The notes under the pieces were generated by a model. That model did no database searches. It worked only from the letters and a program-made list of their open reading frames with translations, and was not told the DNA's origin. From Arenicola marina (Eukaryota > Annelida > Polychaeta > Arenicolidae), in assembly GCA_964019135.1 (NCBI GenBank), contig OZ025248.1:10671574-10735573 (forward strand): 64,000 bases of DNA, in the 5' to 3' direction. The stretch's first letter is position 1, and every line of letters begins with the position of its first letter. Position numbers and translations under genes: made by a program. Positions 21,089-48,100 of this stretch are shown piece after piece.

Positions 21089-22082
21089 ATGCCGAAACTT
21101 AAATTAAACCGCCAGCCTGGCCTCTAATGGCGCTTTACCGTATGATATCCAAGTGCATGTCTATCCTCCACATTACAGAATTTTCCGTCGTGTCTGTGGC
21201 TCACAATAAAATTTAGAATTGACCGCTAACCACGATTTCGCCGCTTAACCAGGCGGCAGCAATTTTTGGAGGTGTGTCAGCCATTGACCAATCAGATACT
21301 CTAATTATCTTTAAACCGGAAATGACGCCTACTGTGTGAGCAAAGCAAGAGCGCGAGATATATCATTATGTTTGGATGCTATTTTTCCATGAAACACGAA
21401 GATCACGGTCTGCTGCGCGGCTTAATTGGAACTGCCGCATTTAATCCGTAATTATAGCGGCCTTAATTGATCTCTCGTTTCACGCGTTTCCCTTGAAGGG
21501 CAGCTCCACTGTGAAGAGTTCCCTACGCAAGATAACTTCCAGTTCTAACATAAAGCGGCGCCGCATCAGGGGTCATAATATATGTCACTTTGCTCCGGCA
21601 AAATGGCGCGCTGCTCGACATTGATGGGGGCGCGTCGGCTTAATTTGTTTCTCCTTACCAGTCGGCCGAAACGAAACTTTAACACTCGCCAAATTAATTT
21701 TAAGTTGTCAACTTTCAGTGCAGATCGCGATTAGATTAGGTTGGACACGCGCTTTAACGGGGGATCGCAAAGTTTTTACGCGGCGGTCGACTGCGATGCG
21801 GAACTCAACCCGGAGGTCCGTGTTATGAAATAACAAATGCTCCCTTCCATGTCAACACCAAAACGAGGATTCGGGAGGAAGTTTTTGAAAGGCTGTGCCT
21901 TACTTCATCAATTTTCTTTCCATTTTGGTAGGTATTTGCGCCAATTTGTCTGTTCATTGCAACATTGACTCATCTTAGTGTATTTTCTCTGTGTATTTCG
22001 GTTCCAACGGGCAAGGTTACTCCGAGCGATAGTAAATTATGCAGCCATTGGATAACTTTCGAAGATTTCGGACAACATGGCT

Positions 22083-24559
22083 GACTTTCTCTAAACTGAG
22101 TGTGTCAAACTTCGCTTTCAAACAGGAAACATCGTGTTTTAACTGTTTTAGTTCTCGACTGTTTTCTTTGTTGGAGGCTTGGTATGTAAGATTACTATAA
22201 GCTCTTGTAGATGCAATTTGAGAGAAGTCAGAAAGTCGAATGTTACGAATAAGGGAGATCCGAATGCATGAAGAATTAACACATTTTGGAAGAAACATCC
22301 AATGAAGTTTGAATGGGGCACCCAGCCTGTGACCAGAAAATCCTTGGTCCAAATCCAAAAAACAGACTGGCTGTTCATTAAGGATCTGTAATCTAGACAT
22401 TGCCAAAGTTTAAAGGACAGCTTTTGGGTAACTTAATTCATAAATATAATGTAATATCCCTGTAGAAGAATAAATATTATTGATACATGATCAGAGTTTT
22501 ATGCACTGTTTTCTTGTCTGCATAGAAAATATTTGCAGTTTCGTTTTCTAATTTGACGCAAAATATTTCTTTGACAAACCTAAAATCAGTTTATATTTGT
22601 CAGCTTCAACCAAAGACCTTGATAAATGGCTGCTTAAACGTTCAGGGTATTAGCCAGATTTTTTTTGTTGCCAGCCAAAATTTTGGCTGGTAAGCAAAGT
22701 GTTCATATAAAATTTTGAGCGATATGATTTTCTTCTAAAAGTCCCGACCAAAAGACTTGTTTTGGGCAGGTAAACGGCATGTGACTGCCCGCCAAACTGA
22801 AAATCTGCCTGCTAAAACTCAGACTGCCTACCTATCCGGAGGGCAGGCGGATCTCTAGTTAATACCCACAGGCGCTGCAGATCGACTGATACAGGCCGGG
22901 GGGGATCGCGCACCGCCCAAAATTTATGTAGGCGGTGAGCGACCCCCCTCCCCCAGCCTGTGTCGGTCGATCTGCAGCGTCTGTGTTAATACCCTACATA
23001 CGCATTAGTACCAGCTACATGAGAGCCATGAAGTGTAAGTCACATGTGACCAAGAATTTGTGAGGGTGTGCATGCATTGTATACTTTTTTTTACCTTTTA
23101 TCGATAGATCCCCTACCACCCAGAGTGATAACAAGTTTTTCCATAAGTGTTAAGCCTTTCTTTTGTGGCTTTGTATCTGGGGTGCAGCTTTTAAAAAGTA
23201 AAATCTGCTATAAACAATACCATATTTTTTTGATACTAGCTAAGACTTGTGGAATTACTTTTTCTCACTTTTGATGGCAGGCAATTTACTGATTATATTC
23301 TTCATGGCTCTCTCGCATGTCGGGTATCAATGCGTATGAGAGCCATGTATCAGGACTAGGTGCAAGAGCCCCCAGGCAAGCCCGCTTCTCTGGAGGTACA
23401 ACAGTATCAATGATTAATACCTTAGACATAAGTAGTTTATCGACTGTAGGTTTAATTACAATGTATGTGTATATAAGTACTTACCTATTACACCATTGGG
23501 AGAAACTGACAGCCCTGCATCTGATGTTCAATTATGTCCAACTATGACAATGGACCCTTTAATCACTCCACTCCCTCCCTACAAATGCAACACAGTTTAA
23601 CTGACCATGCGACGTGTCAACCACCTATATAAACAATGCCTAATTTACTCACCCGCTCTATTAGTTGACTGTAATCTGTGGGTGTTAAGCTGCTGAAACT
23701 GTGCTCTGAGTATCTATCAAAGAAACATATGTCAATTGTTATGGTCTTTGACAGCAAACAGTGTGGGGGTGCCGAGTTAAAGACAATTACAGGCAATAGT
23801 TAAAAATAATGGGCACATGTCAGAATATCGATTCCGGCTTCCACAAGGCAGAACTGTGGAAGTGCATGTTTCTTGATGCCCGCCATAAAAAACTTGCTTC
23901 AAGTCACCGGCAAATCTCACATTTAATGTACAACTTATATATGAGTACGAATACAGCTAAAGACTAAATACTTCTCACATTTGGTGGGTGTGACTTGTAC
24001 CCTTAAAATTACGGTAGTATAATTTTTAAATCCAGACACAGACATTAACTTTGGATGTCGTCTGTCCTGTCAGGCCTGTGGTGTTGAGATTGACCTGCCC
24101 CAATGAAAATTTACCTGTCTGATCAAACTGAGAACAACTACATTGATACAACTAATAAACAATTTATTTACAAGAATTTTGCGCACAGGTTTCCAATGTG
24201 ATATTGTCAGGGCCAAAACATGAAAGCTACCATGTATTGATCTGTGCCTGCAGGTTGTTTACTCTGTGTAACTGATGAACAACTTCACCAGTGCTGTCAG
24301 GCATACAACCAGTATTCTGGCCTGTCCGACCATGTAATTCAACTGTCCCATACAGTCAGTTATGTCTCTCCCTGAAATCATACTTAAGCATATATGTATT
24401 TCATGTGTCACAGGTATGTATTAAACCAAGTTACTTTGCTGAGACTACCTGCTAAAAATTGTATAGCCTGAGCTATATATTGTTATTTTTGTTCAAAAAG
24501 GTGTTAAGCAATTCAACAGAATTTTGATACGGTAGTATAATTTTAGAAAGTCTAAACTA
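22083..24559. repeat. 2.47-kb tandem unit, copy 1
   Basis: First of three near-identical tandem units of about 2.47 kb. All begin at GACTTTCTCTAAACTGAG and end just after AATTCAACAGAATTTTGATA and a short variable linker. The unit carries a minus-strand open frame starting MAMSRLQILNEQPVCFLDLD (ATG at 22406) with a Lys/Leu-rich end. In this copy that frame reads on past the unit boundary to 22017 (129 codons). It also carries short plus-strand frames and the foldback element at 22867-22985. I recognise no family for these frames, and their low length and lack of splice context argue against real genes. Confidence 0.9.
22867..22985. mobile_element. hAT-like foldback MITE with TTAATACC target duplication (in unit 1)
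   Basis: A 119-bp element flanked on both sides by the 8-bp direct repeat TTAATACC (22859-22866 and 22986-22993). Its arms are inverted repeats of about 50 bp beginning CACAGGCGCTGCAGATCGAC on the left and, read inwards on the other strand, CACAGACGCTGCAGATCGAC. About 14 nt of loop (AAAATTTATGTA) lies between them. An 8-bp duplication and a CACAG-type end are usual for hAT elements, so a hAT-derived MITE is the likeliest class. No coding capacity. Confidence 0.75.
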
Positions 24560-27033
24560 GACTTTCTCTAAACTGAGTGTGTCAAACTTCGCTTTCAAAC
24601 AGGAAACATCATGTTTTAGCTGTTTTAGTTCTCGACTGTTTTCTTTGTTGGAGGCTTGGTATGTAAGATTACTGTAAGCTCTTGTAGATGCAATTTGAGA
24701 GAAGTCAGAAAGTCGAATTTTACGAATAAGGGAGATCCGAATGCATGAAAAATTAACACATTTTGGAAGAAACATCCAATGAAGTTTGAATGGGGCACCC
24801 AGCCCGTGACCAGAAAATCTATGGTCCAAATCCAAAAAACAGACTGGCTGTTCATTAAGGATCTGTAATCTAGACATTGCCAAAGTTTAAAGGACAGCTT
24901 TTGGGTAACTTAATTCATAAATATAATGTAATATCCCTGTAGAAGAATAAATATTATTGATACATGATCAGAGTTTTATGCACTGTTTTCTTGTCTGCAT
25001 AGAAAATATTTGCAGTTTCGTTTTCTAATTTGATGCAAAATATTTCATTGACAAACCTAAAATCAGTTTATATTTGTCAGCTTCAACCAAAGACCTTGAT
25101 ACATGGCTGCTCATACGTTCAGGGTATTAGCCAGATTTTTTTTGTTGCCAGCCAAAATTTTGGCTGGTAAGCAAAGTGTTCATATAAAATTTTGAGCGAT
25201 ATGATTTTCTTCTAAAAGTCTCGACCAAAAGACTTGTTTTGGGCAGGTAAACGGCATGTGACTGCCCGCCAAACTGAAAATCTGCCTGCTAAAACTCAGA
25301 CTGCCTGTCTATCCGGAGGGCAGGCGGATCTCTAGTTAATACCCACAGGCGCTGCAGATCGACTGATACAGGCCGGGGGGGGATCGCGCACCGCCCAAAA
25401 TGTATGTAGGCGGTGAGCGACCCCCATCCCCCAGCCTGTGTCGGTCGATCTGCAGCGCCTGTGTTAATACCCTACATACGCATTAGTACCCGCTACATGA
25501 GAGCCATGAAGTGTAAGTCCCGTGTGACCAAGAATTTGTGAGGGTGTGCATGCATTGTATACTTTTTTTTACCTTTTATCGATAGATCCCCTACCACCCA
25601 GAGTGATAACAAGTTTTTCCATAAGTGTTAAGCCTTTCTTTTGTGGCTTTGTATCTGGGGTGCATCTTTTAAAAAGTAAAATCTGCTATAAACAATACCA
25701 TATTTTTTTGATACTAGCTAAGACTTGTGGAATTACTTTTTCTCACTTTTGATGGCAGGCAATTTACTGATTATATTCTTCATGGCTCTCTCGCATGTCG
25801 GGTATCAATGCGTATGAGAGCCATGTATCAGGACTAGGTGCAAGAGCCCCCAGGCAAGCCCGCTTCTCTGGAGGTACAACAGTATCAATGATTAATACCT
25901 TAGACATAAGTAGTTTATCGACTGTAGGTTTAATTATAATGTATGTGTATATAAGTACTTACCTATTACACCATTGGGAGAAACTGACAGCCCTGCATCT
26001 GATGTTCAATTATGTCCAACTATGACAATGAACCCTTTAATCACTCCACTCCCTCCCTACAAATGCAACACAGTTTAACTGACCATGCGACGTGTCAACC
26101 ACCTATATAAACAATGCCTAATTTACTCACCCGCTCTATTAGTTGACTGTAATCTGTGGGTTTTAAGCTGCTGAAACTGTGCTCTGAGTATCTATCAAAG
26201 AAACATATGTCAATTGTTATGGTCTTTGACAGCAAACAGTGTGGGGGTGCCGAGTTAAAGACAATTACAGGCAATAGTTAAAAATAATGGGCACATGTCA
26301 GAATATCGATTCCGGCTTCCACAAGGCAGAACTGTGGAAGTGCATGTTTCTTGATGCCCGCCATAAAAAACTTGCTTCAAGTCACCGGCAAATCTCACAT
26401 TTAATGTACAACTTATATATGAGTGCGAATACAGCTAAAGACTAAATACTTCTCACATTTGGTGGGTGTGACTTATACCCTTAAAATTACGGTAGTATAA
26501 TTTTTAAATCCAGAGACAGACATTAACTTTGGATGTTGTCTGTCCTGTCAGGCCTGTGGTGTTGAGATTGACCTGCCCCAATGAAAATTTACCTGTCTGA
26601 TCAAACTGAAAAACAACTACATTGATACAACTAATAAACAATTTATTTACAAGAATTTTGCGCACAGGTTTCCAATGTGATATTGTCAGGGCCAAAACAT
26701 GAAAGCTACCATGTATTGATCTGTGCCTGCAGGTTGTTTACTCTGTGTAACTGATGAACAACTTCACCAGCGCTGTCAGGCATACAACCAGTATTCTGGC
26801 CTGTCCGACCATGTAATTCAACTGTCCCATACAGTCAGTTATGTCTCTCCCTGAAATCATACTTAAGCATATATGTATTTCATGTGTCACAGGTATGTAT
26901 TAAACCAAGTTACTTTGCTGAGACTACCTGCTAAAAATTGTATAGCCTGAGCTATATATTGTTATTTTTGTTCAAAAAGGTGTTAAGCAATTCAACAGAA
27001 TTTTGATACGGTAGTATAATTTTTTCAAAACTA
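24560..27033. repeat. 2.47-kb tandem unit, copy 2
   Basis: Second unit, 2474 bp. It differs from the neighbours by scattered single-base changes and a few short indels, on reading of the order of one to a few per cent. The minus-strand frame is 108 codons here, because the flanking sequence beyond the unit start is different from that in copy 1. Confidence 0.9.
25344..25463. mobile_element. hAT-like foldback MITE (in unit 2)
   Basis: The same element carried along in the second tandem unit, 120 bp, with the same TTAATACC flanks at 25336-25343 and 25464-25471. It shares its insertion site with the other two units, so it was present before the triplication. Confidence 0.75.
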
Positions 27034-29480
27034 GACTTTCTCTAAACTGAGTGTGTCAAACTTCGCTTTCAAACAGGAAACATCGTGTTTTAACTGTTTT
27101 AGTTCTCGACTGTTTTCTTTGTTGGAGGCTTGGTATGTAAGATTACTATAAGCTCTTGTAGATGCAATTTGAGAGAAGTCAGAAAGTCGAATGTTACGAA
27201 TAAGGGAGATCCGAATGCATGAAAAATTAACACATTTTGGAAGAAACATCCAATGAAGTTTAAATGGGGCACCCAGCCTGTGACCAGAAAATCCTTGGTC
27301 CAAATCCAAAAAACAGACTGGCTGTTCATTAAGGATCTGTAATCTAGACATTGCCAAAGTTTAAAGGACAGCTTTTGGGTAACTTAATTCATAAATATAA
27401 TGTAATATCCCTGTAGAAGAATAAATATTATTGATACATGATCAGAGTTTTATGCACTGTTTTCTTGTCTGCATAGAAAATATTTGCAGTTTCGTTTTCT
27501 AATTTGACGCAAAATATTTCATTGACAAACCTAAAATCAGTTTATATTTGTCAGCTTCAACCAAAGACCTTGATAAATGGCTGCTTATACGTTCAGGGTA
27601 TTAGCCAGATTTTTTTTGTTGCCAGCCAAAATTTTGGCTGGTAAGCAAAGTGTTCATATAAAATTTTGAGCGATATGATTTTCTTCTAAAAGTCCCGACC
27701 AAAAGACTTGTTTTGGGCAGGTAAACGGCATGTGACTGCCCGCCAAACTGAAAATCTGCCTGCTAAAACTCAGACTGCCTACCTATCCGGAGGGCAGGCG
27801 GATCTCTAGTTAATACCCACAGGCGCTGCAGATCGACTGATACAGGCCGGGGGGGATCGCGCACCGCCCAAAATTTATGTAGGCGGTGAGCGACCCCCCT
27901 CCCCCAGCCTGTGTCGGTCGATCTGCAGCGTCTGTGTTAATACCCTACATACGCATTAGTACCCGCTACATGAGAGCCATGAAGTGTAAGTCACATGTGA
28001 CCAAGAATTTGTGAGGGTGTGCATGCATTGTATACTTTTTTTTACCTTTTATCGATAGATCCCCTGCCACCCAGAGTGATAACAAGTTTTTCCATAAGTA
28101 TTAAGCCTTTCTTTTGTGGCTTTGTATCTGGGGTGCAGCTTTTAAAAAGTAAAATCTGCTATAAACAATACCATATTTTTTTGATACTAGCTAAGACTTG
28201 TGGAATTACTTTTTCTCACTTTTGATGGCAGGCAATTTACTGATTATATTCTTCATGGCTCTCTCGCATGTCGGGTATCAATGCGTATGAGAGCCATGTA
28301 TCAGGACTAGGTGCAAGAGCCCCCAGGCAAGCCCGCTTCTCTGGAGGTACAACAGTATCAATGATTAATACCTTAGACATAAGTAGTTTATCGACTGTAG
28401 GTTTAATTATAATGTATGTGTATATAAGTACTTACCTATTACACCATTGGGAGAAACTGACAGCCCTGCATCTGATGTTCAATTATGTCCAACTATGACA
28501 ATGAACCCTTTAATCACTCCACTCCCTCCCTACAAATGCAACACAGTTTAACTGACCATGCGACGTGTCAACCACCTATATAAACAATGCCTAATTTACT
28601 CACCCGCTCTATTAGTTGACTGTAATCTGTGGGTTTTAAGCTGCTGAAACTGTGCTCTGAGTATCTATCAAAGAAACATATGTCAATTGTTATGGTCTTT
28701 GACAGCAAACAGTGTGGGGGTGCTGAGTTAAAGACAATTACAGGCAATAGTTAAAAATAATGGGCACATGTCAGAATATCGATTCCGGCTTCCACAAGGC
28801 AGAACTGTGGAAGTGCATGTTTCTTGATGCCGCCATAAAAAACTTGCTTCAAGTCACCGGCAAATCTCACATTTAATGTACAACTTATATATGAGTGCGA
28901 ATACAGCTAAAGACTAAATACTTCTCACATTTGGTGGGTGTGACTTATACCCTTAAAATTACGGTAGTATAATTTTGAAATCCAGAGACAGACATTAACT
29001 TTGGATGTTGTCTGTCCTGTCAGGCCTGTGGTGTTGAGATTGACCTGCCCCAATGAAAATTTACCTGTCTGATCAAACTGAGAAACAACTACATTGATAC
29101 AACTAATAAACAATTTATTTACAAGAATTTTGCGCACAGGTTTCCAATGTGATATTGTCAGGGCCAAAACATGAAAGCTACCATGTATTGATCTGTGCCT
29201 GCAGGTTGTTTACTCTGTGTAACTGATGAACAACTTCACCAGCGCTGTCAGGCATACAACCAGTATTCTGGCCTGTCCGACCATGTAATTCAACTGTCCC
29301 ATACAGTCAGTTATGTCTCTCCCTGAAATCATACTTAAGCATATATGTATTTCATGTGTCACAGGTATGTATTAAACCAAGTTACTTTGCTGAGACTACC
29401 TGCTAAAAATTCTATAGCCTGAGCTATATATTGTTATTTTTGTTCAAAAAGGTGTTAAGCAATTCAACAGAATTTTGATA
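27034..29480. repeat. 2.47-kb tandem unit, copy 3
   Basis: Third unit. Its end is followed by a short extra duplication: about 57 bp ending in AATTCAACAGAATTTTGATA is repeated imperfectly at about 29483-29539. This may be a remnant of the junction at which the tandem amplification started. Confidence 0.9.
27818..27936. mobile_element. hAT-like foldback MITE (in unit 3)
   Basis: Third copy, 119 bp, flanked by TTAATACC at 27810-27817 and 27937-27944, at the same place within the tandem unit. Confidence 0.75.
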
Positions 29481-30697: not shown

Positions 30698-33600
30698 ATG
30701 TCGGTGACGTTCACGTGTCGACCTAACTCCCACCCATTCCAGGAGAGACATATTTCTATACAGGAGCCCATTAAGATAGGTCGCTCCGTGGCCAGAGCGC
30801 GGCCCGCACCAAACAATGCCATATTTGACTGTAAGGTCTTATCCAGAAACCATGCCTTGTTGTGGTATGAAAACAACACAGTGAGTACCCCTTTTTGTTA
30901 TTTAAGTTAATAATGGGTATCTTTTCTTATGAGATACAAGTGCAGATGTTTCAATTCATTTCACCAACTTTTGAACAGAATGACTTGGTTGGACTATTTT
31001 TCTCAGTGACCAATAATCCCAATGTTCTGTTTTACTGATCGTCAGCTCAAATGGTGTGATGCTTAGTATGCTAGTACATGTAACATTTTCAGCTTTGTAC
31101 AGTTAATTAAGTTTAACTGCTGTACACCGTAATTGGGCTAAATTCGGTTGTAATTACCAGGACTGTCCTTGTGCCTAATTAGTTCTTGAAACTGAACTTT
31201 TGGACGCTCTAATTACTGTCTTGACATCACAAAATATCATGATACATTTTTCAACACATTTCGACAACCCCAGATACACCCTGCAAGCATACATAACACA
31301 TCCTTGAATTATCAAATCGGCATCGCAGAATTAGCAAGTGAGACTTGTGTACGACTAGGAGGTTAAGCACATGTGCTGGTGGAAACGAAATCCTCCACCA
31401 TCAATAATAAGGAGCTAGTCAGAGAATATGATGGCTTTGGTATTAGGTCTGGCTTGAGGGGAGCCTTTCTACAGATAGTTCTGTACGGGACGAGAAAGGC
31501 CGTTTTTTTTTTATTGGCCTTGGAAACCAAACCGATTTGCTTGCGATTTAGCCTCTCACGCTCTTGGCTTGGGTGTTCTGTTTGCTGTTGCTAGCACCCA
31601 TCGAGTGAGATGGTGGAGAGTACCTGCATCCAGCAACCCCTGGATTGTCTATTTTCGTCGCTAATAGAGTTCGCGCGAGGCGACGCCGTGCAGCGTAGGC
31701 CTTGCAGACGACCAAAGCGACACGAATGGCGGGAAAGCGATTGATGTGCTATTGTAGTCCCTGTTCAGTCACGTGTGCTTGGCATTACTGAGGCGCTGTA
31801 TATCGATCGACTTGCACCCAGCCGCCCCCTATTATGTGTACTGGCTGAAGAGTGAGTGATGCGAACTGCGGTGGTGATTGAAGACAATCAATCCCGGGGA
31901 GGAGGAGGGGGGGGGGGGTGCTGTCATTGATATGCAATAGTACGCATCAAGGTCAGATAATGATGCCTCCCATGTCTGGTTATACTATATGGTCAGCTGT
32001 AAGTCCACATCATTATGGTGTGAGAGACAGGACCACACAACCCTGATTAGTGTCTGCGGTACAATAAGGATGAGCGCACGACAACAGTACCTGCCTATAA
32101 TACAAATCTACAATAGGGGTAAATGTACGATTGGTTGTACATTACAAATGTCAAATGTTGCGATGGGCAGAGTGTGGGTTGTTGTTCTGTTGTGGCCGGT
32201 TACGTGATGATTTTATTGACTGTCGAATAACCGATAAATGACAGTTTTTTATTACGCTGCTTTAGCGTGGTAGTAATCGAGGCCATGTCAGGAGTGTATT
32301 CGATACACCCCGCTTTTGACATTTAAAAGCGTGAATAACAACCATTCGCCCAATCCCAGTGACCTTTAGGAAATCTAAATAATTCGTTAATAACGTCATT
32401 CAACTTCAAAGTGGAACAACAATGTCGGCAGCCATTACGTAGGTCTAGGCTCCACGGCAACACAACACATTTTATTGTCATACTGTGTAAGGAGTCATTG
32501 ACATTTAATTCCGTATTATGGTAATGATTTGTCTGGGTATCCTTTTTTCAATACTACTTTTGTTGTTTCACGAGAGGATGCTTGCTTTGATTCAGATTCA
32601 TATCATCCCTGAATGATTTTCAGTTTTACCTGCTCCTCCATTTTTGGCGATTCTTACGGCCGAGACTAAATGTGATTCAGAGAATGTCAATATATAATAT
32701 TAAAGTTGCATGTCGAGTTATTTCCCGCCAAAACTAAGCCCAGGCGAAATTTTTATCAAAATTTGCAGAAAACTCGATTGTGCCATTACATAAATTCAGA
32801 AACCTGATAAACCTCGCTGTTTCGGCTGTGGTGTGGCAAACGTGTCTATCCCGCGACACCACAGCACTCTGTCGCGGCACTGCTACTTATAACAAAGCAT
32901 CGCGAAGCACACAAACTGATGACGTTTACCACTGAAATGAAAATTTGTGGTAAACTGATATCCCGGGCAAGGCTAAGAGACACTATTTGGCAGTCTGGCA
33001 TGGGTGGAGTATAGACAAAACCAATCTTGAATGATTCAAGGACTGATTCTTATTTGTATTTTGACCTCTTTAGTTTTGGCGGGAAAGAGCTCCACATGCA
33101 ACTTTAAGTATCGATACGCAAAAGTAAAATGCCTATAATTCTATCAGCGTTAGTCAGTGAAGTGCAGGTACGACATTTGGCCAGCCTTTCTCTGTTGTTG
33201 CATATTGTCAAGAAGGGTGGATTTGCGGCAGTAGTCCTGAGAGGAAAGTGCTCCCCTGTTTGGATAGTCTACCGTGCGTAACCGTGTCGTTTGCCATGCC
33301 AGCGTGGTTAACCTCTGTATGTAGCGGCCAGATTGGAGTACCGGAGAACATGTAGGGTTTGGTATTACCGTACTTAATGTGAGTTGCTGCGTTTTTTGTA
33401 CCTAGTGTATATGGGAGAAAGTACATTTTTGGCTCAGAGGGAACTTCCGGACGTTTCGCCTCTCAGACATTTCGGCTACCGGACTTTTCGCCTCTCAGAC
33501 ATTCCGGCTGCCGGAAGTTTCGGCTCTCAGACATTTTCGGCTGCCGGACGTTTCGTCGTCAGATATTTCGGCTATGGAACAATTCGGCTTCCGGTGGACT

Positions 33601-36600
33601 GGTGGCTTTTGTTTTTGGGTTCTTTTAGCGGTGTGGAAAATGTATTTTTTATCTGAAGTTTGCTTGAGAAAATTGTTGATAGCGTATGTTAATCCTTGTG
33701 CACGGCGGGGAGAGAAAACTAGAGAAAGGGAGAGTGTTGTAGAGAGTGCGAGAAAAAGGGTATTGTAGAGAGTGCGAGAAGGAGGATATTGTAGAGAGGG
33801 CGAGAAGGAGGGTATTGTAGAGAGGGCGAGAAGGAGGGTATTGTAGAGTAGGCGAGAAGGAGGGTATTGTATAGAGGGCGAGAAGGAGGGTATTGTAGAG
33901 AGGACGAGAAGGAGGGTATTGTAGAGAGGGCGAGAAGAAGGGTATTGTAGAGTAGGCGAGTAGGAGGATATTGTAGAGAGGGCGAGAAGGAGGGTATTGT
34001 AGAGAGGGCGAGAAGGAGGGTATTGTAGAGAGGGCGAGAAGGAGGGTATTGTAGAGTAGGCGAGAAGGAGGGTATTGTATAGAGGGCGAGAAGGAGGGTA
34101 TTGTAGAGAGGGCGAGAATGAGGGTATTGTATAGAGGGCGAGAAGGAGGGTATTGTAGAGAGGGCGAGAATGAGGGTATTGTAGAGTAGGCGAGAAGGAG
34201 GGTATTGTAGAGAGGGCGAGAAGGAGGGTATTGTAGAGAGGGCGAGAATGAGGGTATTGTAGAGTAGGCGAGAAGGAGGGTATTGTAGAGAGGGCGAGAA
34301 GGAGGGTATTGTAGAGAGGGCGAGAAGGAGGGTATTGTAGAGATGGTGAGAAGAAGGGTATTGTAGAGTAGGCGAGAAGGAGGGTATTGTAGAGAGGGCG
34401 AGAAGGAGGGTATTGTAGAGAGGGCGAGAATGAGGGTATTGTAGAGTAGGCGAGAAGGAGGGTATTGTAGAGAGGGCGAGAAGGAGGGTATTGTAGAGAG
34501 GGCGAGAAGGAGGGTATTGTAGAGATGGTGAGAAGAAGGGTATTGTAGAGTAGGCGAGAAGGAGGGTATTGTAGAGAGGGCGAGAAGGAGGGTATTGTAG
34601 AGATGGTGAGAAGAAGGGTATTGTAGAGTAGGCGAGAAGGAGGGTATTGTAAAGAGGGCGAGAAGGAGGGTATTGTAGAGATGGTGAGAAGAAGGGTATT
34701 GTAGAGTAGGCGAGAAGGAGGGTATTGTAGAGAGGGCGAGAAGGAGGGTATTGTAGAGAGGGCGAGAAGGAGGGTATTGTAGAGAGGGCGAGAAGGATGG
34801 TATTGTAGAGAGGGCGAGAAGGAGGATATTGTAGAGAGGGCGAGAAGGAGGGTATTGTAGAGTAGGCGAGAAGGAGGGCATTGTAGAGTAGGCGAGAAGA
34901 AGGGTGTTGTAGAGAGGGCGAGAAGGAGGGTATTGTAGAGTAGGCGAGAAGGAGGGTATTGTAGAGAGGGCGAGAAGGAGGGTATCGTAGAGTAGGCGAG
35001 AAGGAGGGTATTGTAGAGAGTGCGAGAAGGAGGGTATTGTAGAGGGCGAGAAGGAGGGTATTGTAGAGAGGGCGAGAAGGAGGGTATTGTAGAGTGAGAG
35101 GAGGATATTGTAGAGAGTGCGGGAAGGAGGGTATTGTAGAGTAGGCGAGAAGGAGGGTATTGTAAAGAGGGCAAGAAGGAGGGTATTGTAGAGAGGGCGA
35201 GCAGGAGGATACTGTAGAGCAGGCGAGAAGGAGGGTATTGTAGAGAGGGTGAGAAGGAGGCTATTGTAGAGAGGGCGAGAAGGAGGGTATTGTAGAGAGG
35301 GCGAGAAGGAAGTATTGTAGAGAGGGTGAGAAGGAGGCTATTGTAGAGAGGGCGAGAAGGAGGGTATTGTAGAGAGGGCGAGAAGGAGGGTATTGTAGAG
35401 AGGGCGAGAAGGAGGGTATTGTAGAGAGGGCGAGAAGGAGGGTATTGTAGAGAGTGCGAGAAGGAGGGTATTGTAGAGAGGGCGAGAAGGAGGGTATTGT
35501 AGAGAGGGCGAGAAGGAGGGTATTGTAGAGAGTGCGGGAAGGAGGGTATTGCAGAGAGGGCGAGAAAGAGGGTATTATAGAGAGTGCGAGAAGAAGGGTA
35601 TTGTCGAAAGGGCGAGAATGAGGGTATTGTAGAGAGGGCGAGAAGGAGGGTATTGTAGAGAGGGCGAGAAGGAGGGTATTGTAGAGAGGGCGAGAAGGAG
35701 GGTATTGTAGAGAGGGTGAGAAGGAGGGTCTTGTAGAGAGGGCGAGAAGGAGGGTATTGTAGAGAGGGCGAGAAGGAGGGTATTGTAGAGAGGGCGAGAA
35801 GGAGGGTATTGTAGAGAGGGCGAGAATGAGGGTATTGTAGAGAGGGTGAGAAGGAGGGTATTGTAGAGAGGGCGAGAAGGAGGGTATTGTAAAAAGGGCG
35901 AGAAGGAGGGTATTGTAGAGAGGGCGAGAAGGAGGGTATTGTAGAGAGGGCGAGAAGGAGGGTATTGTAGAGTAGGCGAGAAGGAGGGCATTGTAGAGTA
36001 GGCGAGAATGAGGGTATTGTAGAGTGAGAGGAGGATATTGTAGAGAGGGCGAGAAGGAGGGTATTGTAGAGAGTGCGAGAAGGAGGGTATTGTAGAGAGG
36101 GCGAGAAGGAGGGTATTGTAGAGAGGGCGAGAAGGAGGGTATTGTAGAGAGGGCGAGAAGGAGGGTATTGTAGAGAGGGCGAGAAGGAGGGTATTGTAGA
36201 GAGGGCGAGAAGGAGGGTATTGTAGAGAGGGCGAGAAGGAGGGTATTGTAGAGAGGGCGAGAAGGAGGGTATTGTAGAGAGGGCGAGAAGGAGGGTATTG
36301 TAGAGTAGGCGAGAAGGAGGGTATTGTAGAGAGGGCGAGAAGGAGGGTATTGTAGAGAGGGCGAGAAGGAGGGTATTGTAGAGAGGGCGAGAAGGAGGGT
36401 ATTGTAGAGAGGGCGAGAAGGAGGGTATTGTAGAGAGGGCGAGAAGGAGGGTATTGTAGAGAGGGCGAGAAGGAGGGTATTGTAGAGTAGGCGAGAAGAT
36501 AGGTATTGTAGAGGGCGAGAAGGAGGGTATTGTAGAGAGGGCGAGAAGGAGGGTATTGTAGAGAGGGCGAGAAGGAGGGTATTGTAGAGAGGGCGAGAAG

Positions 36601-39600
36601 GAGGGTATTGTAGAGTAGGCGAGAAGGAGGGCATTGTAGAGTAGGCGAGAATGAGGGTATTGTAGAGAGGGTGAGAAGGAGGGTATTGTAGAGAGGACGA
36701 GAAGGAGGCTATTGTAGAGAGGGCGAGAAGGAGGGTATTGTAGAGAGGGCGAGAAGGAGGGTATTGTAGAGTAGGCGAGAAGGAGGGTATCGTAGAGAGG
36801 GCGAGAAGGAGGGTATTGTAGAGTAGCCGAGAAGGATGGCATTGTAGAGTAGGCGAGAAGGAGGGTATTGTAGAGAGGGCGAGAAGGAGGGTATTGTAGA
36901 GAGGGCGAGAATGAGGGTATTGTAGAGTAGGCGAGAAGGAGGGTATTGTAGAGAGGGCGAGAAGGAGGGTATTGTAGAGTAGCCGAGAAGGATGGCATTG
37001 TAGAGTAGGCGAGAAGGAGGGTATTGTAGAGAGGGCGAGAAGGAGGGTATTGTAGAGAGGGCGAGAATGAGGGTATTGTAGAGAGGGCGAGAAGGAGGGT
37101 ATTGTAGAGAGGGCGAGAAGGAGGGTATTGTAGAGAGGGCGAGAAGGAGGGTATTGTGGAGAGGGCGAGAAGGAGGGTATTGTAGAGAGGGCGAGAAGGA
37201 GGGTGAGTAGGATAGAGGGGGCGAGAAGGAGGGTATTGTAGAGAGGGCGAGAAGGAGGGTGAGTAGGATAGAGGGGGCGAGAAGAGGGTGAGTAGGATAG
37301 AGGGGGGAGGAGAGGGTGAGTAAGAGAGAGAGAGGGCGAGGAGATGGTGAGTATGATAGAGGGGGGAGGAGTGGGGGGGTAGGATAGAAAGACCGAGGAG
37401 ATGGAGAATGAGAGAGTAGAAAAGACAGAGAGAGAGAGAAGAGAGAATGGCAACATTACTTATCTGCCTGGAACTGACCTAAAGGGCAAGACACCCAAGC
37501 CTTCTAGAAGGGCACGCTGGCTAACGACGGCTGTGTTCACACTGATGGCAGCCAGGTGCTATAGTACTGCCCCAATGGCGCTGTACACACGCTGGGCGGG
37601 AACAGAGCTCGCCTGGCTCGGGTGGAGATGGGTAGATGGGTGGCCCAGCAGTGCTTGGTTACCATCACGATACGTTCCCAGGCAGGTGGAGTGATCGAGT
37701 TCACAGGTGGAACAGACCTTCCAATGAACCAAGCTCCCCTACGTTTTTAACCAACACCTGGGATGGCAACGTTTTTGTCACTGTAGGGTTAATTTTGGAG
37801 CTAGAGAGTGGTTAGTAAGGAGTGGTTAGGTTAGCTAGTAAAGTGGGCCAGAAGGAAGTTAACAAATAATGTGGAGTACTAGACAAGGATTTATAGCTGG
37901 CTATTAATAATATACGGAGGGAACGCTCAGCTGTTTTTAAACCCCTTGGAGTTGAACTGCAAGAAAGTCCATTGCACGTTTGTTTGCAAGTAGAATTTTA
38001 GATGCAGTTAAATGTGTATTTCATTTGTAGAAGAACAGCAACACACGTTTGGAACGTATGCAAACTGTTTTCGATATATGGTGCATGTATTACGGCTTGC
38101 CATAAGTACATCAGCGGCTTGATTTCTTTCCCATTTATTACCATGGCCGGGTTACCAGTGTGAACCAAACCCACCAGGAAATCTCCGCCAGACTTCTCCC
38201 CTGCAGTTCTCCACACTACGATCCGGGGATGACCAAAGAACACCATAGTAACCCCAGCTCCATGGCGCTATAGTCGATGGCATTCCGAATCGGTGGTGTA
38301 GGATTGCATACCGGGCGGGCCAAGAGTCCAGGTTCCAGGCATGGCCATGGTTTGGTTTTGGTGTGGCTTCGGTCGCTTTGATCGGCCGTTACCCGTGCCA
38401 GAGGTCAGGCCGCTTGTGGTTAGGATCGCTGGCCCCTGCCTAAACCACAACCAGAAGCCGCTATGTTAGGCCGGGCTGCCACCGTGCTCTTACAGATAAC
38501 TAACTGTAGGACGTTCTCAAGGATTTAATGCTGTGAACCGTCGGCTCAAGCCCCCTCCCCACCTCCACCACCCACAGACACACACAAGTGGGCGACTCTA
38601 GAAACGTGTTTTTTATTTCATATAAAAGGGGATTCCATTTACACGATTTTATCATTAATTAAATCTATTGAGGCAGGTCGCCATGTAAAGCTGTTATCAG
38701 CCGGAAACACGCGTAGGTGTTGGCAGTCTTAGCTGTTCCAAGGCCTTCATCAGGTGGGTCGCTGTGTTTCCGGACTCATATCGGTCCTATATATATATAT
38801 ATGTATATATATATGGATCCTATACAGGTCGGCTTATAATTTTACTTGCATCATCGCGTGACTTGTGTGGATAGAGGGATCGGCGGCGAAGGCTTATCCG
38901 GGTACTGATGTGTCGGCCTGCATGACAGTTTTATTGCCGAAAGTGCAAGTGTAGTCATGTGAGCGGCTGGAGGGGTGGGGGATGGGGGCTCTTTGACCCC
39001 TGCTTACAACTCACGCACGACGGTACCGACATACATGTGCTAAGTGTATGGTCGGTTCTAGATTCAACATAATTACTTTGACAAAGCTGAAATATTTCAT
39101 ACCTAGCCAAACCGAACGAACAAGACCACTTCGACAAGGACGACTGTAAAATCCTTATCATTGGATAAGTTGTACCAAAAATATAATTACCCGGTACGCG
39201 TATATGCGGGTAATTATAACTTGTGACTTAGTAGTTAGTTACAAGCTGTTCCGTTCCAAATAAGTAGCACTTGGAAATTGAAGTTGTAACAAGTTTTTTC
39301 GCACAAATGGCTGGGATCAGGGGATGAGCGTTTGCCATCCTACTCTTTGCGAAGGAAGAATATGACCACATCTGATCCCGTCCTCCCTCACCGTTTCACA
39401 TGGGGCGTCCGCCATCGTGCTCCGCCGCTCGTTATATCATGTATACTATGAGCGGCCGCCTTGTTGGAATGTCATATTGAGCGCCAGACGCGGCACCAGG
39501 TAATCATATTTACATACATGTGGAGACCCGGCGCATTCCCCCAAATTGCCTTGAGCGCCCAACCGTCGGGGGCAACTATTTCTGGGTGGCCCACCCAGTC

Positions 39601-42600: not shown

Positions 42601-45138
42601 TCGCAAAATAAATAAAGTTTATTCAAAAAAAAAACCTAGACACCCGATGTACACAAATGGCTAGATCTCGCCTTACAGGATGAAAGTGCCGTTAAACCCG
42701 AATCAAATCGAATGATCGAGTTCTAGAAACAGAAAATATGTGTCTGCTGTATGCTCATATCCGGGCTTATCTGACGGGGTGTCTAGGCGAGATGCACATG
42801 AATGTATGTGTCTATGTAGCAATCCCGCGTTGTGGCCGTGGGAAGCTTGGTCAGCCCCAGACTCAATTAGTGTGCAAGGTACACACGACTTGGGCACGGC
42901 GCCAGCTGAACCTGCCCCGAGCATACATTCACCCCACGGTGCATGTCTGCTGGCGCCCTCTGGAGGAAGAGTGAGCTCAGCCCTGCTGGTGGTGTGTAAT
43001 GGTGTGTGTGCCGCAGCGGTGCGGCGCAACCGCATCAGCCAACACCCACTGTGGGAACATTACAGTCAAGTCATTCACAGCGTTATCTTCAAATTAAGGG
43101 ATTAACACTTAGTTCATGTGAGGGTCCGTGATAAAACTGAACTCCCAAATCCGTTGTAACCTATATATGGGTTCATGGTATGGGGTATCAATGTAGGAAG
43201 GATGTGAAGAGTGGTTACAGATATCAGCGACTGTTACAATGCACGTAGGGACCACCCGAATGCTATGGCGGTTGGCGGTTCGCCCGCTCGGCTTGGTTCT
43301 CGCCCCAATGCCCGTGCAGGATATACGTTAATCCCATGTCCTGCTCCGAAATGAGTAGGGGGTTACCCCCTGAGAAATGGCTCCGCACTTACCCTTTATC
43401 GTCCCCCTTATGAGGCGCGATATGAGCCTCGTGGATTTAACTTGAACCCTCTAACCCTTGGTTACACGGACGTGCGTAGCACTAACTTATGTCTGAAGAC
43501 AGACATGGAATTCATGCCGACTACACTAATTGCTACACTCACAGAACACGATAACAGTAATGGCTGGGCCTTTACCCCAAAATTACCGACAAACTACGCT
43601 GCTGAAATACCTTTCCTGTCTGGCGTTACGCGTTTGGTACATATTTACAACATGAATTATTTGTCATGCTATTTCACATTGCGTAAAATATCTCAGTGAG
43701 GCATAGGACGACGTTGTTCGTCACCCCGTGGCTGAGTGCATAGGGCGCTCAGCTAATGTCTATTGTGCTCAGCTCAGGGCAGCCCTAGCCGGCGGTGCGT
43801 GGATGGAGTCCCTTCTGTGCAGATATGTGCATGTTAATGTTACTCATGCAGCATTATTTTTCTTGAGAAACTTTAAAAATGGTTTCACTGGAAATGATGT
43901 ATTGCTATTCTACATGTTGTTAAGCGCGTTTTGTGGCCCAATTAGTGTGTCTCATGTGGGAAAGTGGCTTCTCTCTGCCTCCACCCATTTCGTTGTCGCG
44001 ATATGATATATACAGCGACCTAGTCACATCAGTCAAATCAATCGTCATCGGCCCTCATTCGATGCCATATGCGGACTCGCACTGCCTAAAATGAGTCCGC
44101 CTGACCATGTATCTATGCTCGCAAATATTGCGTTACCCCCATGTGGAGATATGATATCGTTACCATGTAACAAAGTGGCCATGCACGAACTTTTTTGTAT
44201 TTATCGCCTGACTATCTACTGCTTCCTCTTTCAATCCAAGTTCTGTATGAGTGGCCTCTTTTCGCAAACGATCTAACTCATCCCGAGTCGCCATGGACTC
44301 TTAAACACCGATCGCCACTGTGAACACTGAACATAGAGTCGTCATGCCAACCAAGGTCACCATAGTAATTTTTGATTTGACTAAAAAACGGACCTTTTTT
44401 CCATTCCTACTCATGCTGTTGTAAAGGTGCATTGTTGCGCCATTGATTATTATGATATGAAAGCTATGCAAGCATGTTAATGTATCTTCTATCTATTTAC
44501 CGCCTTTTTTTTTAGTTCTACCTCCAAGACACAAAGAGCAGCAATGGCACGTTCGTCAACAACCAGAGGCTCAGCAAAGGCTCCGAGGAAAGCCCGCCAC
44601 AGGAAATCTTCTCCGGGGACCTCGTCCAGTTTGGTGTTGACGTCATGGAGAACTCCAGGCGAGGTGAGACGTAGGGGGCATGTGTAAGGGGGGGGGGGCG
44701 AGCGGGGTGATTGCTGATGTGTGGGTACATCTCAGTCGTCAGGCCATTTCTCTGAGATGTGTGCGGGGGTGCATGCTGCGGGGGCCTTTGGGGAACCCCG
44801 CGCAGTTCACCAGAATCATACCCTAAAAAGAGATCATATTAATGACGCATGCCAATGTCTAAATAACCTGCGCCATGTTGAAACGCTAAGCATGTGAAAC
44901 GATGTGTTCGCCCTTAGGTGGGCAAACCATTGAAGCCCGTTTCCAAAACGGTTTCGGTTTCCCATAGGTTTCATATAAATCGAAACCCGTCCTCACTGTT
45001 ACACGATGTCATATCTTTCAGTACTTTTCCATAATATGTGGTTAACATTCCGTGTTTCTGTGTCCTTGCAGTGACCCACAGCTGTATCATTGCCTCGGTA
45101 CAGCTCTTTCACTCCGATGGAAGGGAAGCAACAAATAG
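30698..45138 (+). CDS. SLMAP: SLMAP exons 1-3: FHA domain
   Basis: Exon coordinates: 1, 30698-30880; 2, 44516-44663; 3, 45072-45138. They encode residues 1-132. The FHA phospho-threonine pocket is intact: GRS at 28-30, SRNH at 49-52 and NGT at 71-73. Arg29 corresponds to human Arg32, known to contact phosphorylated MST2. Intron 1 is 13.6 kb and interrupts the domain. Joining exons 1 and 2 gives NNT followed by FYLQD. Human has two more residues (Gly-Lys) here, so either this species has lost them in a surface turn or a 6-nt microexon was missed. Confidence 0.95.
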
Positions 45139-48100
45139 GTCAGTGAATCGCCATATTGTTTCTGCCGACATGCCACTTTCTTACCTTTATAAGCTCCCAT
45201 ATTATTTGTTGCCAATCTACTCTTATATACTGGCGGGTCGTGGGTCGTGTGTGTAGTAAAATTGTTTTATACTGTCTATCTTCATATTTGAAAGCAAAAC
45301 GTAATGTCGATGACGCAGTGAATGAAAACATCACTTTACCAGCGTCAAGAAGTGTCTTCAGCAATGTCTCCTTTGATTTATTGCACATTTTATATTTGTA
45401 TTGATGGAGTAAGGAATTGTTTAATGCATAATTTCCATTTTTATAATTTATAATAATTCTCAGGGGAAATATTGTTGCATGAGTAGCTGTAACTTCGCTT
45501 TGTGTTTCAGTCATTCCAGTCCATTCCTCAGCTCTCCGGGAAGCCCGCTAACAGCGCAGTCTCAGGAACTCTACCAGCTCGCCCAGTACCTCCAGGTAAA
45601 CTTACTTACCCTAACGTTATACAAGCTCGCACAGTACCTCCAGGTAAACTTACTTACCCCAACGTTATGCAAGCTCGCATAGTACCTCCAGGTAAACTTA
45701 CTTACCCCATCGTTATGCAAGCTCGCACAGTACCTTCAGGTAAACTTACCCCAACGTTATGCAAGCTCGCACAGTACCTCCAGGTAAACTTACTTACCCC
45801 AACATTATGCAAGCTCGCACAGTACCTCCAGGTAAACTTACTTACCCCAACGTTATACAAGCTCGCACAGTACCTCCAGGTAAACTTACTTACCCCAACG
45901 TTATACAAGCTCGCACAGTACCTTCAGGTAAACTTACTTACCCCAACGTTATACAAGCTCGCACAGTACCTTCAGGTAAACTTACTTACCCCAACGTTAT
46001 ACAAGCTCGCACAGTACCTTCAGGTAAACTTACTTACCCCAACTTAATGCAAACTCACACAGTACCTCCAGGTAAAGCCAGTCTTACCTGCCCAACTTTA
46101 TGCAAACTCACACAGTACCTCCAGGTAAAACCAGTCTTACCTGCCCAACTTTATGCAAACTCACACAGTACCTCCAGGTGGAGCCAGTCTTACCTGCCCA
46201 ACTTTATGCAAACTCACACAGTACCTCCAGGTGAAGCCAGTCTTACGTACACCATTATCATGCCAATTGTATAATACTAAAGACCTGATGTCTCGAAAGG
46301 TATCGGTAATTATGCATTTGTTAAGACGTCATCTTTACGCTGACTAAGTAGTTTATACTTGTATGCAAATATTGTTTGGTCTTAGCCTCGAAGCATTGTT
46401 TGTGACTGCTTTGTCCCATTGCTATGGCAGGAGGCGTTACACAGGGAGCAAATGTTGGAGAACAAGCTAGCCTCCCTCCAGAGCCTGGTACAGAACACGC
46501 AAGAAGCCTCCGACAGTGGCTGGCAGGTACGCCACGTGGTCCTTGCCGTCTCGCATTTAATACATATGGTTTCATATAGTCAACGTATGCAGTACAGCAT
46601 TTCCAGCAAGCAGACATATAATCGTAATGTGTGAATAATGAATACTTTTACATTATCCAATCACTGATGTGATATGTGAAGGTCACATCTCCCTGATATC
46701 CACGCGGTGTGATATTGGTGTGTTAACAATCCAGTCTAAAGCGGGTTTTATTACTCTATTTACTACATGTCTGGCAAGAAATTACTATAGTTATGCCTCT
46801 GGTAAATATGTATAATGGGAAGTCTACGTCATTGTGTGTTTATCTTCGACTTGCAGGCTTTAATAGACGAAGATCGACTTCTTTCGCGGCTGGAGGTTTT
46901 GGAAAACCAGTTAGCAACCTGCTCCAAAGTGAGTGACATTTCGCAAATGGTTTCTCATTAGTTCGTCTTCTTTGTCTAGATCGATTAGCGATGTTGTTTT
47001 GTCGATAGAGGAAGGAGATTCCCATTAATTCCTCACCCTTGAGCTGACCTGGACAAGGCCACGGTTTGATTGACTATCCTCCATCCAAGTTGTGTTTGTT
47101 TTGCATGTGTGAGACTGAGAGGTCTTTGCCGTTATATCTGCCGCGGTGGTAGCCTCTTCCTATGGTTGCTAGTGGAGGCAAACATGCTATAGTAGCGCTC
47201 TATATGATAGAGCTGACATATCAGGACCTACAATCAGAAGTATTTGGCTGTATGGTAGTATGAATGTCGTACACGCATCAAAATGCATACCGATACTTTG
47301 TACAGTAGCCCAATAGTAATGCCGATAACAAATCATACACTAATCATATAATGAATGTCTTTACTTGGCTTTGTTTGATTTGCTTGGGCTGTAACGGTGT
47401 GTATATTATGCATAAAATAATGCCATGGTACCTGCTTGTGCATTTTCCACATCTCAGGGGCCCTCATGCCATGCCATGCTAAACTCGTTCACAAATTACA
47501 TGTATGTTATTATCATTTAGAAAAGGTATCCAAATTTATGATCAATAAAGGTTGTAAGATATTTATCTCCCTACGATTATGGCACTTGTTGGATATTCCT
47601 GACCAGCTCTGGAGACAATTAGGGGGGTCTCCTCCGCTCAGTTTATCTGCGTTGCCAAACAGGTGGCGGGTTCGAACCCTGGCACCTGTATGTGGGGCTT
47701 CGTGCAGCTGTATATATGGCACGGTCACGGGAGGTTTATTGACTTTCATGTTACAAACAAAAGCAGCCTAGAACACTTAACGTTTCATTTCTGGAGAATA
47801 TTATGTGCGGACGACGGCTCCAAGTGCTTGTCGTCCAACTACTCGCAACTAAAGCCTGTCTCGTAATACCCACGCCTTGTTACCAATCCCCCACACTCGT
47901 GGTTGTGATGCATGTATGAGACTAAGACGTCTCAACCGTTATATCTGCCATGGTAGCCTGCTTCGTATGGCTGCTAGTGGAGGGAAGCATGCTATAGTAG
48001 AGCTCTATATATGATAGAGCTGACATATCAGGACCTGCAACCAGGAGTATTCGGTTGTACGGTAGTATGAATGTCGTACACAATTCCTCTTTTCGCTCTG

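Follow-up and report, generated by a model that had tools for sequence, protein, structure and literature searches.

In the annelid Arenicola marina the donor splice site that ends exon 4 of the SLMAP gene has been multiplied by a minisatellite into a tandem array of 14 donors. The array lies within a 64,000-nucleotide stretch of contig OZ025248.1 (assembly GCA_964019135.1, positions 10,671,574 to 10,735,573 of the forward strand), referred to below as the window; unless another source is given, coordinates are those of the window and features lie on its plus strand. The array is a mirage in an annelid, i.e., a minisatellite whose repeat unit spans an exon-intron boundary. We put at about 0.75 the probability that in this 5'-splice-site mirage the first donor is used nearly always, the extra donors being tolerated bystanders.

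The 14-fold donor array is real. Tandem Repeats Finder (TRF) reports a 48-bp tandem array at 45572-46179 with a score of 867, owing to which chance is of no concern, and a scan of the window with the pattern TACCT[TC]CAGGT returns 14 donors, all of them copies of TACCT(C/T)CAG|GT. Their last exon-side nucleotides are 45595, 45643, 45691, 45739, 45783, 45831, and 45879 for donors 1-7, and 45927, 45975, 46023, 46071, 46124, 46177, and 46230 for donors 8-14. The spacings are, in order, 48 nt three times, 44 nt once, 48 nt six times, and 53 nt three times, the 44-nt unit (45740..45783) shifting the frame of the repeat. The whole array, 14 copies of the exon end and intron start, extends over 45572..46254, its end being set by eye where the likeness of copy 14 fades; it begins with the true exon end and occupies most of intron 4 (45596-46430, 835 nt). 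The 9-mer CAGGTAAAC is common to donors 1-10, and donors 11, 12, 13, and 14 read CAGGTAAAG, CAGGTAAAA, CAGGTGGAG, and CAGGTGAAG, respectively. These four distal copies (46048..46254) have the 53-nt spacing and a diverged intron-like part, as seen by pattern scan, donor scoring, and folding. CAG|GT is kept in all 14 copies, being part of the pattern by which they were found, and in 12 of them the score is at most 0.1 below that of donor 1. When the 867 Mb, 762-contig assembly is searched with a 91-nt piece of the array, very common words being skipped, the SLMAP locus alone is returned, in 12 overlapping matches; the assembly represents a single haplotype. An initial annotation made from the sequence had proposed 14 tandem donors starting at the SLMAP exon end, which both TRF and the pattern scan bear out. 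It had also described a unit of 21 exonic and 27 intronic nucleotides, valid as one rotation of the 48-mer, the TRF array beginning 24 nt inside the exon; the donors of the copies differ as it claimed, its list omitting a GTAAAA variant.

The identification of the gene as SLMAP, likewise made in that annotation, agrees with the protein matches. The forkhead-associated (FHA) domain is matched by Pfam at 1.9e-17 and by the SLMAP structure 6ar0 in PDB at 6.8e-64, and the coiled coil that follows it is matched by PDB 6akm at 4e-22. The coiled coil in 6akm is known to bind SIKE1. The FHA domain starts in coding exon 1 (30698..30880) and continues in exon 2 (44516..44663); exon 3 follows at 45072..45138, the boundaries of these three exons being set by eye. 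Exon 4 (45511..45595, 85 nt), read between the acceptor TTTGTGTTTCAG and the donor CAG|GTAAAC, ends with ...LYQLAQYLQ|, its last 24 nt being copy 1 of the array. Exon 5 (46431..46526, 32 residues) and exon 6 (46857..46928) were placed by the PDB match and by relatives. Among the matches listed, the closest named relatives are annelids and molluscs, Capitella being 76% identical across 73% of the query. By COX1 the host is a polychaete near Pilargidae: contig 762 (15,942 bases), which carries this gene and has the look of a mitochondrial genome, gives Pilargis wolfi as its best COX1 hit at 92% identity, and the named ones among the first 48 hits listed are annelids, judging by name. An amphioxus host was considered and rejected on account of COX1 and of the SLMAP relatives. 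The residues at the end of exon 4 and at the start of exon 5 (YLQ|EAL) are contiguous in all 120 listed relatives, 112 by pattern and eight by reading, the latter with substitutions only; these are the 120 highest-scoring of 8000, with many vertebrate isoforms or close species among them. This continuity, together with 6akm, shows that exon 4 ends at copy 1 and that donor 1 (GT at 45596..45597) is the authentic one, as first annotated; judged from sequence, the outermost 5' copy is the authentic exon end.

A minisatellite presumably arose over the SLMAP exon end and spread into the intron, so that a further 13 copies of the last codons of the exon and of its donor would have been made, with the true exon left as the outermost 5' copy. 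Donor 1 would then be used nearly always, through its position and exon definition and not through its strength, with the extra donors as tolerated bystanders. The anatomy, the gene, the reading frames, and the recurrence at three other genes described below are shown, while first-donor use, decay of slipped transcripts, and neutrality are inferred. Donor 2 (GT at 45644..45645) would insert 16 open in-frame codons, as anticipated; since the exon end is repeated at the close of every unit, the insert restores LYKLAQYLQ next to EAL, and the coiled coil would keep its start. Donors 3-14, i.e., 12 of the 13 alternatives, all reach the in-frame TAG at 45680..45682, in the exon-like part of copy 3, which confirms the truncation foreseen from donor 3 onward. 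For transcripts containing such a stop nonsense-mediated decay is expected, and mRNA from slips to these donors would probably be destroyed. Among the nine 48-nt units that follow a donor, seven are open in the native frame. An open repeat frame was considered as a sign of coding use and carries no information on it, since copies derived from one founder are not independent.

The same anatomy recurs elsewhere in the genome. When the genome is scanned for tandem triplets of CAGGTAAG, there are 6,387 matches vs. 1,778 for the reversed pattern, and for tandem triplets of AAGGTAAG there are 5,937 vs. 834; the matches, which overlap within arrays, are not independent of each other, and a simple five-base repeat accounts for 20 of the 100 listed AAGGTAAG places. 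The two listings comprise 14 arrays, three from the former pattern and 11 from the latter. The 5' edge was read for nine of them, and in three it carries a homology-supported coding exon, of ALDH1L, of a tubulin tyrosine ligase-like (TTLL) gene, and of POT1. ALDH1L is the strongest of these further cases. Its exon matches the Pfam family Aldedh at 5.4e-14 and PDB at 1.3e-34, and when joined to the next exon across the array gives a contiguous match at 3.4e-47. The array (G000:C1:605765-612308) consists of 168.5 copies of a 39-bp unit, equal to 13 codons; the authentic donor is the full consensus, as are its copies, and the stretch read contains 112 exact CAG|GTAAGT. From donor 1, 12 of the 112 (counting the first) are reachable with no intervening stop, and all 12 are in frame; a stop in this frame first occurs at 606360, and only 22 of the 112 share the phase of donor 1. 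The TTLL exon matches Pfam TTL at 6e-15 and, at best, PDB 5vlq at 4.6e-9, and the POT1 exon has matches at 1.5e-8 in Pfam and 1.9e-5 in PDB. In both, homology reaches the 5'-most donor or ends within one residue of it, a comparison confined to the exon 5' of the array. Because the unit is 52 nt in TTLL and 50 nt in POT1, splicing from donor 2 would cause a frameshift in either gene, which makes regular use of that donor unlikely. As for other arrays, that of L040 adjoins an open exon without a named family, whose PDB matches to designed proteins (E 0.09-0.79) are of no weight, and that of L037 adjoins a possible start-codon exon only; no exon was seen at the 5' edge read in L039 and L041, and the arrays of L033 and L034 extend past the stretch fetched.

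Tandem alternative donors a few bases apart are known, with several donors competing for one exon; compared with these, the arrays described here have a spacing of about 39-57 nt, near-identical repeats, and far more sites. Of the same kind as the SLMAP array are the amphioxus mirages of Adh3, troponin C, BflGb6, BflGb9, and PGBD5, in which a repeat copies an exon boundary. According to one report, tandem repeats extend over exon-intron boundaries of amphioxus globin genes, one of which has 6 units in one haplotype and 3 in the other, and the Adh3 mirage cited there has unit lengths of 10-72 bp and shows somatic instability; the Adh3 data and globin reverse-transcription PCR suggest that splicing is undisturbed by mirages, which are also proposed as a source of new introns (PMC3087553). 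In another, PGBD5 is described as a further amphioxus mirage, and those of Adh and troponin C are said to produce no aberrant mRNA (PMC3902484). In contrast to these cases, the host here is an annelid, splicing is predicted from the DNA sequence, recurrence was sought genome-wide, and the copy number is 14 in SLMAP and 168 in ALDH1L, compared with the 6 and 3 units of the two BflGb6 haplotypes. In human segmental-duplication paralogs, variable minisatellites at exon-intron boundaries have been tied to novel introns (PMC2812944). Those repeats, of 30-bp units and four copies on average, likewise reach exon-intron boundaries and alter gene structure; they differ in their low copy number, their recent paralogs, and the novel introns, whereas here the copies lie within an existing intron. 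The potato RdRp gene acquired a new intron through a tandem duplication across a splice boundary (PMC4974935), and the likeness is that a boundary-crossing duplication brings ready-made splice signals; there a single duplication gave a new intron, whereas here copies are many and no new intron is claimed. No boundary-spanning case from an annelid or other protostome is among the matches listed, in a literature mostly without subscription papers; for earthworm metallothionein, intronic minisatellites are described, with no boundary-spanning case noted in the portion consulted. What is new is the setting, the recurrence in one repeat-rich genome, and the extreme copy number, the mirage arrangement itself being known.

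The choice of donor 1 can hardly be attributed to its strength. Over the nine bases scored there is no difference among donors 1-10, which all reach 3.84 on a matrix derived from human data, the 15 other scored donors of the gene ranging from 1.15 to 8.76; donor strength therefore cannot select donor 1. A different possibility is that RNA structure masks the extra donors, each pairing with a nearby downstream TTACC or TTACCTG. Copies 11 and 12 (46063-46151) do contain a perfect CAGGTAA/TTACCTG hairpin over the donor and fold at -7.6 kcal/mol, shuffled sequences doing as well in 5 of 200 and 0 of 200 cases, and donors 11-13 are the least accessible of the array (0.0001-0.0002). However, RNA folding gives donor 1 the same small hairpin as donor 2 and an accessibility of 0.0016, within the 0.0006-0.0040 of donors 2-10, while the ordinary exon 5 and exon 9 donors of SLMAP (0.0002 and 0.0006) are more closed than donor 1, and five of the seven copies tested fold within the shuffle range. 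Hairpins were rejected as the selector of donor 1 because hairpin and accessibility are shared with later donors, and masking is very improbable as an explanation of the array. With neither strength nor structure marking out donor 1, position and exon definition remain, and it is by these that donor 1 would be picked. The extra donors might alternatively serve as docking sites of the U1 small nuclear ribonucleoprotein, guarding against premature polyadenylation or helping the recognition of a weak donor. Such a role, which we consider quite unlikely, is in keeping with many near-identical U1-complementary sites in tandem and with an exon 4 donor that lacks G at +5 and has the score given above, but the ALDH1L donor, already a full consensus, needs no help, and in an SLMAP intron of only 835 nt protection is hard to justify.

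A further rival is regulated donor slippage, in which donor 2, or several in-frame donors in ALDH1L, would yield longer isoforms whose output is tuned by copy number. In SLMAP the first unit is open, has a length divisible by three, and gives back the residues that precede the junction, and ALDH1L offers the 12 stop-free, in-frame donors. Several further points weigh against bystander status. In test constructs carrying a pair of identical 5' splice sites it was often the downstream one that was preferred, which would predict the opposite of first-donor use. When all 14 SLMAP copies are taken together, divergence is lower in the exon-like than in the intron-like half (0.095 vs. 0.327), which could hint at constraint. 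Alternative transcripts are reported for 66% of the intron modifications in the human paralogs with boundary repeats (PMC2812944), and owing to this bystander status is not a given. The divergence contrast, however, stems from the 53-nt block, copies 11-14 having 0.0 in the exon-like and 0.153 in the intron-like part; extra constraint on the exon-like halves is absent both in SLMAP copies 2-10 without copy 4 (0.055 exon-like, 0.040 intron-like) and in ALDH1L (0.052 and 0.057). Slippage is also opposed by the stop that ends 12 of the 13 SLMAP alternatives, by the small share of ALDH1L donors in phase, and by the frame-shifting units of two of the four homology-supported arrays, TTLL and POT1. 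An insert at the junction is found in 0 of the 120 listed relatives, though the array is not known from any of these, and the amphioxus cases are reported as normally spliced (PMC3087553, PMC3902484). Slippage is accordingly improbable in our estimation, and tuning of isoforms by copy number, which the initial annotation had entertained, is unlikely. The reading of the extra donors as bystanders is preferred because ALDH1L, TTLL, and POT1 have the same anatomy, two of them with frame-shifting units, and because of the amphioxus reports. It is also worth considering that the array was created or lengthened by mis-assembly, tandem arrays being the hardest regions to assemble; yet the copies are not uniform, having spacings of 44, 48, and 53 nt as well as private changes, the contig is 77 Mb long, and the anatomy recurs at other genes, which makes an artefact the least probable of these explanations.

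The minisatellite load of the sampled genome is very high. In twenty sampled 10-kb stretches (L012-L031), 18 from contig 1, mostly 4 Mb apart, and one each from contigs 2 and 3, tandem arrays with a period of at least 10 and at least 3 copies hold 37.3% of the 200 kb; there are 70 arrays, present in all 20 stretches, one of which is wholly satellite, with a median period of 33 and about 8 copies. By the same definition 7,120 of the 64,000 bases of the window lie in tandem arrays. With 37% of sampled bases in arrays, capture of splice sites by minisatellites is to be expected, and this suggests that the amphioxus mirages reflect a high birth rate of minisatellites and not a peculiarity of cephalochordates. 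If the 10 non-simple arrays within the initial 27.85 Mb of one contig are crudely scaled up, AAGGTAAG-type arrays would number about 300 genome-wide, as an order of magnitude only, with perhaps one third of them starting at recognisable exons. Tentatively, and at somewhat less than even odds, it may be proposed that throughout the genome working donors have been amplified by minisatellites, probably in genes numbering in the hundreds and with about 112 identical full-consensus donors in a single intron at the extreme, harmlessly owing to a strict rule by which the first donor after the acceptor is taken. Most work on donor choice among equals has used constructs with two or three sites. The natural genes described here present ten (SLMAP) and 112 (ALDH1L) identical donors in their own exon context, and the rule for choosing among equal donors could be read from ordinary long-read RNA in this genome. 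If the first-donor rule is true, ALDH1L, SLMAP, TTLL, and POT1 are natural experiments on the choice of the spliceosome among equals.

In the same 200 kb sample, 146 of the 171 open frames at array edges were compared with Pfam, and 12 families were matched at E up to 0.01, by one frame each; the best match, RNA_pol_Rpb2_3 at 4.2e-10, belongs to a frame not traceable by motif, and nothing is concluded from it. A candidate for a mirage on the acceptor side is present at L020:1926-2317, where 56-bp units, four of them with TGT(T/A)(G/A)CAG, lead from the last unit into a transmembrane-like exon, GLTIGLAVAIAVVVLVVLVIGVFGFLRKR, followed by GTAAGA. A PDB search with this candidate gave no match, and its short exon has no Pfam match. 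The boundary types seen are thus four homology-supported 5' cases and this single 3' candidate (units at L020 1926-2244) without homology support.

Further repeats accompany the SLMAP array in the window, in which an Rfam scan at gathering scores gave no match. The segment 57416-58121 is a 36-bp array of 19.6 copies with several frames open, putatively coding at most. At 22074-29383 a 2.47 kb segment is present in three tandem copies, 300-nt blocks of which are 88-100% alike. Additionally, 137 copies of a 26-bp unit rich in G and A form a minisatellite at 33729-37289, between SLMAP exons 1 and 2, whose two strands differ very strongly in composition.
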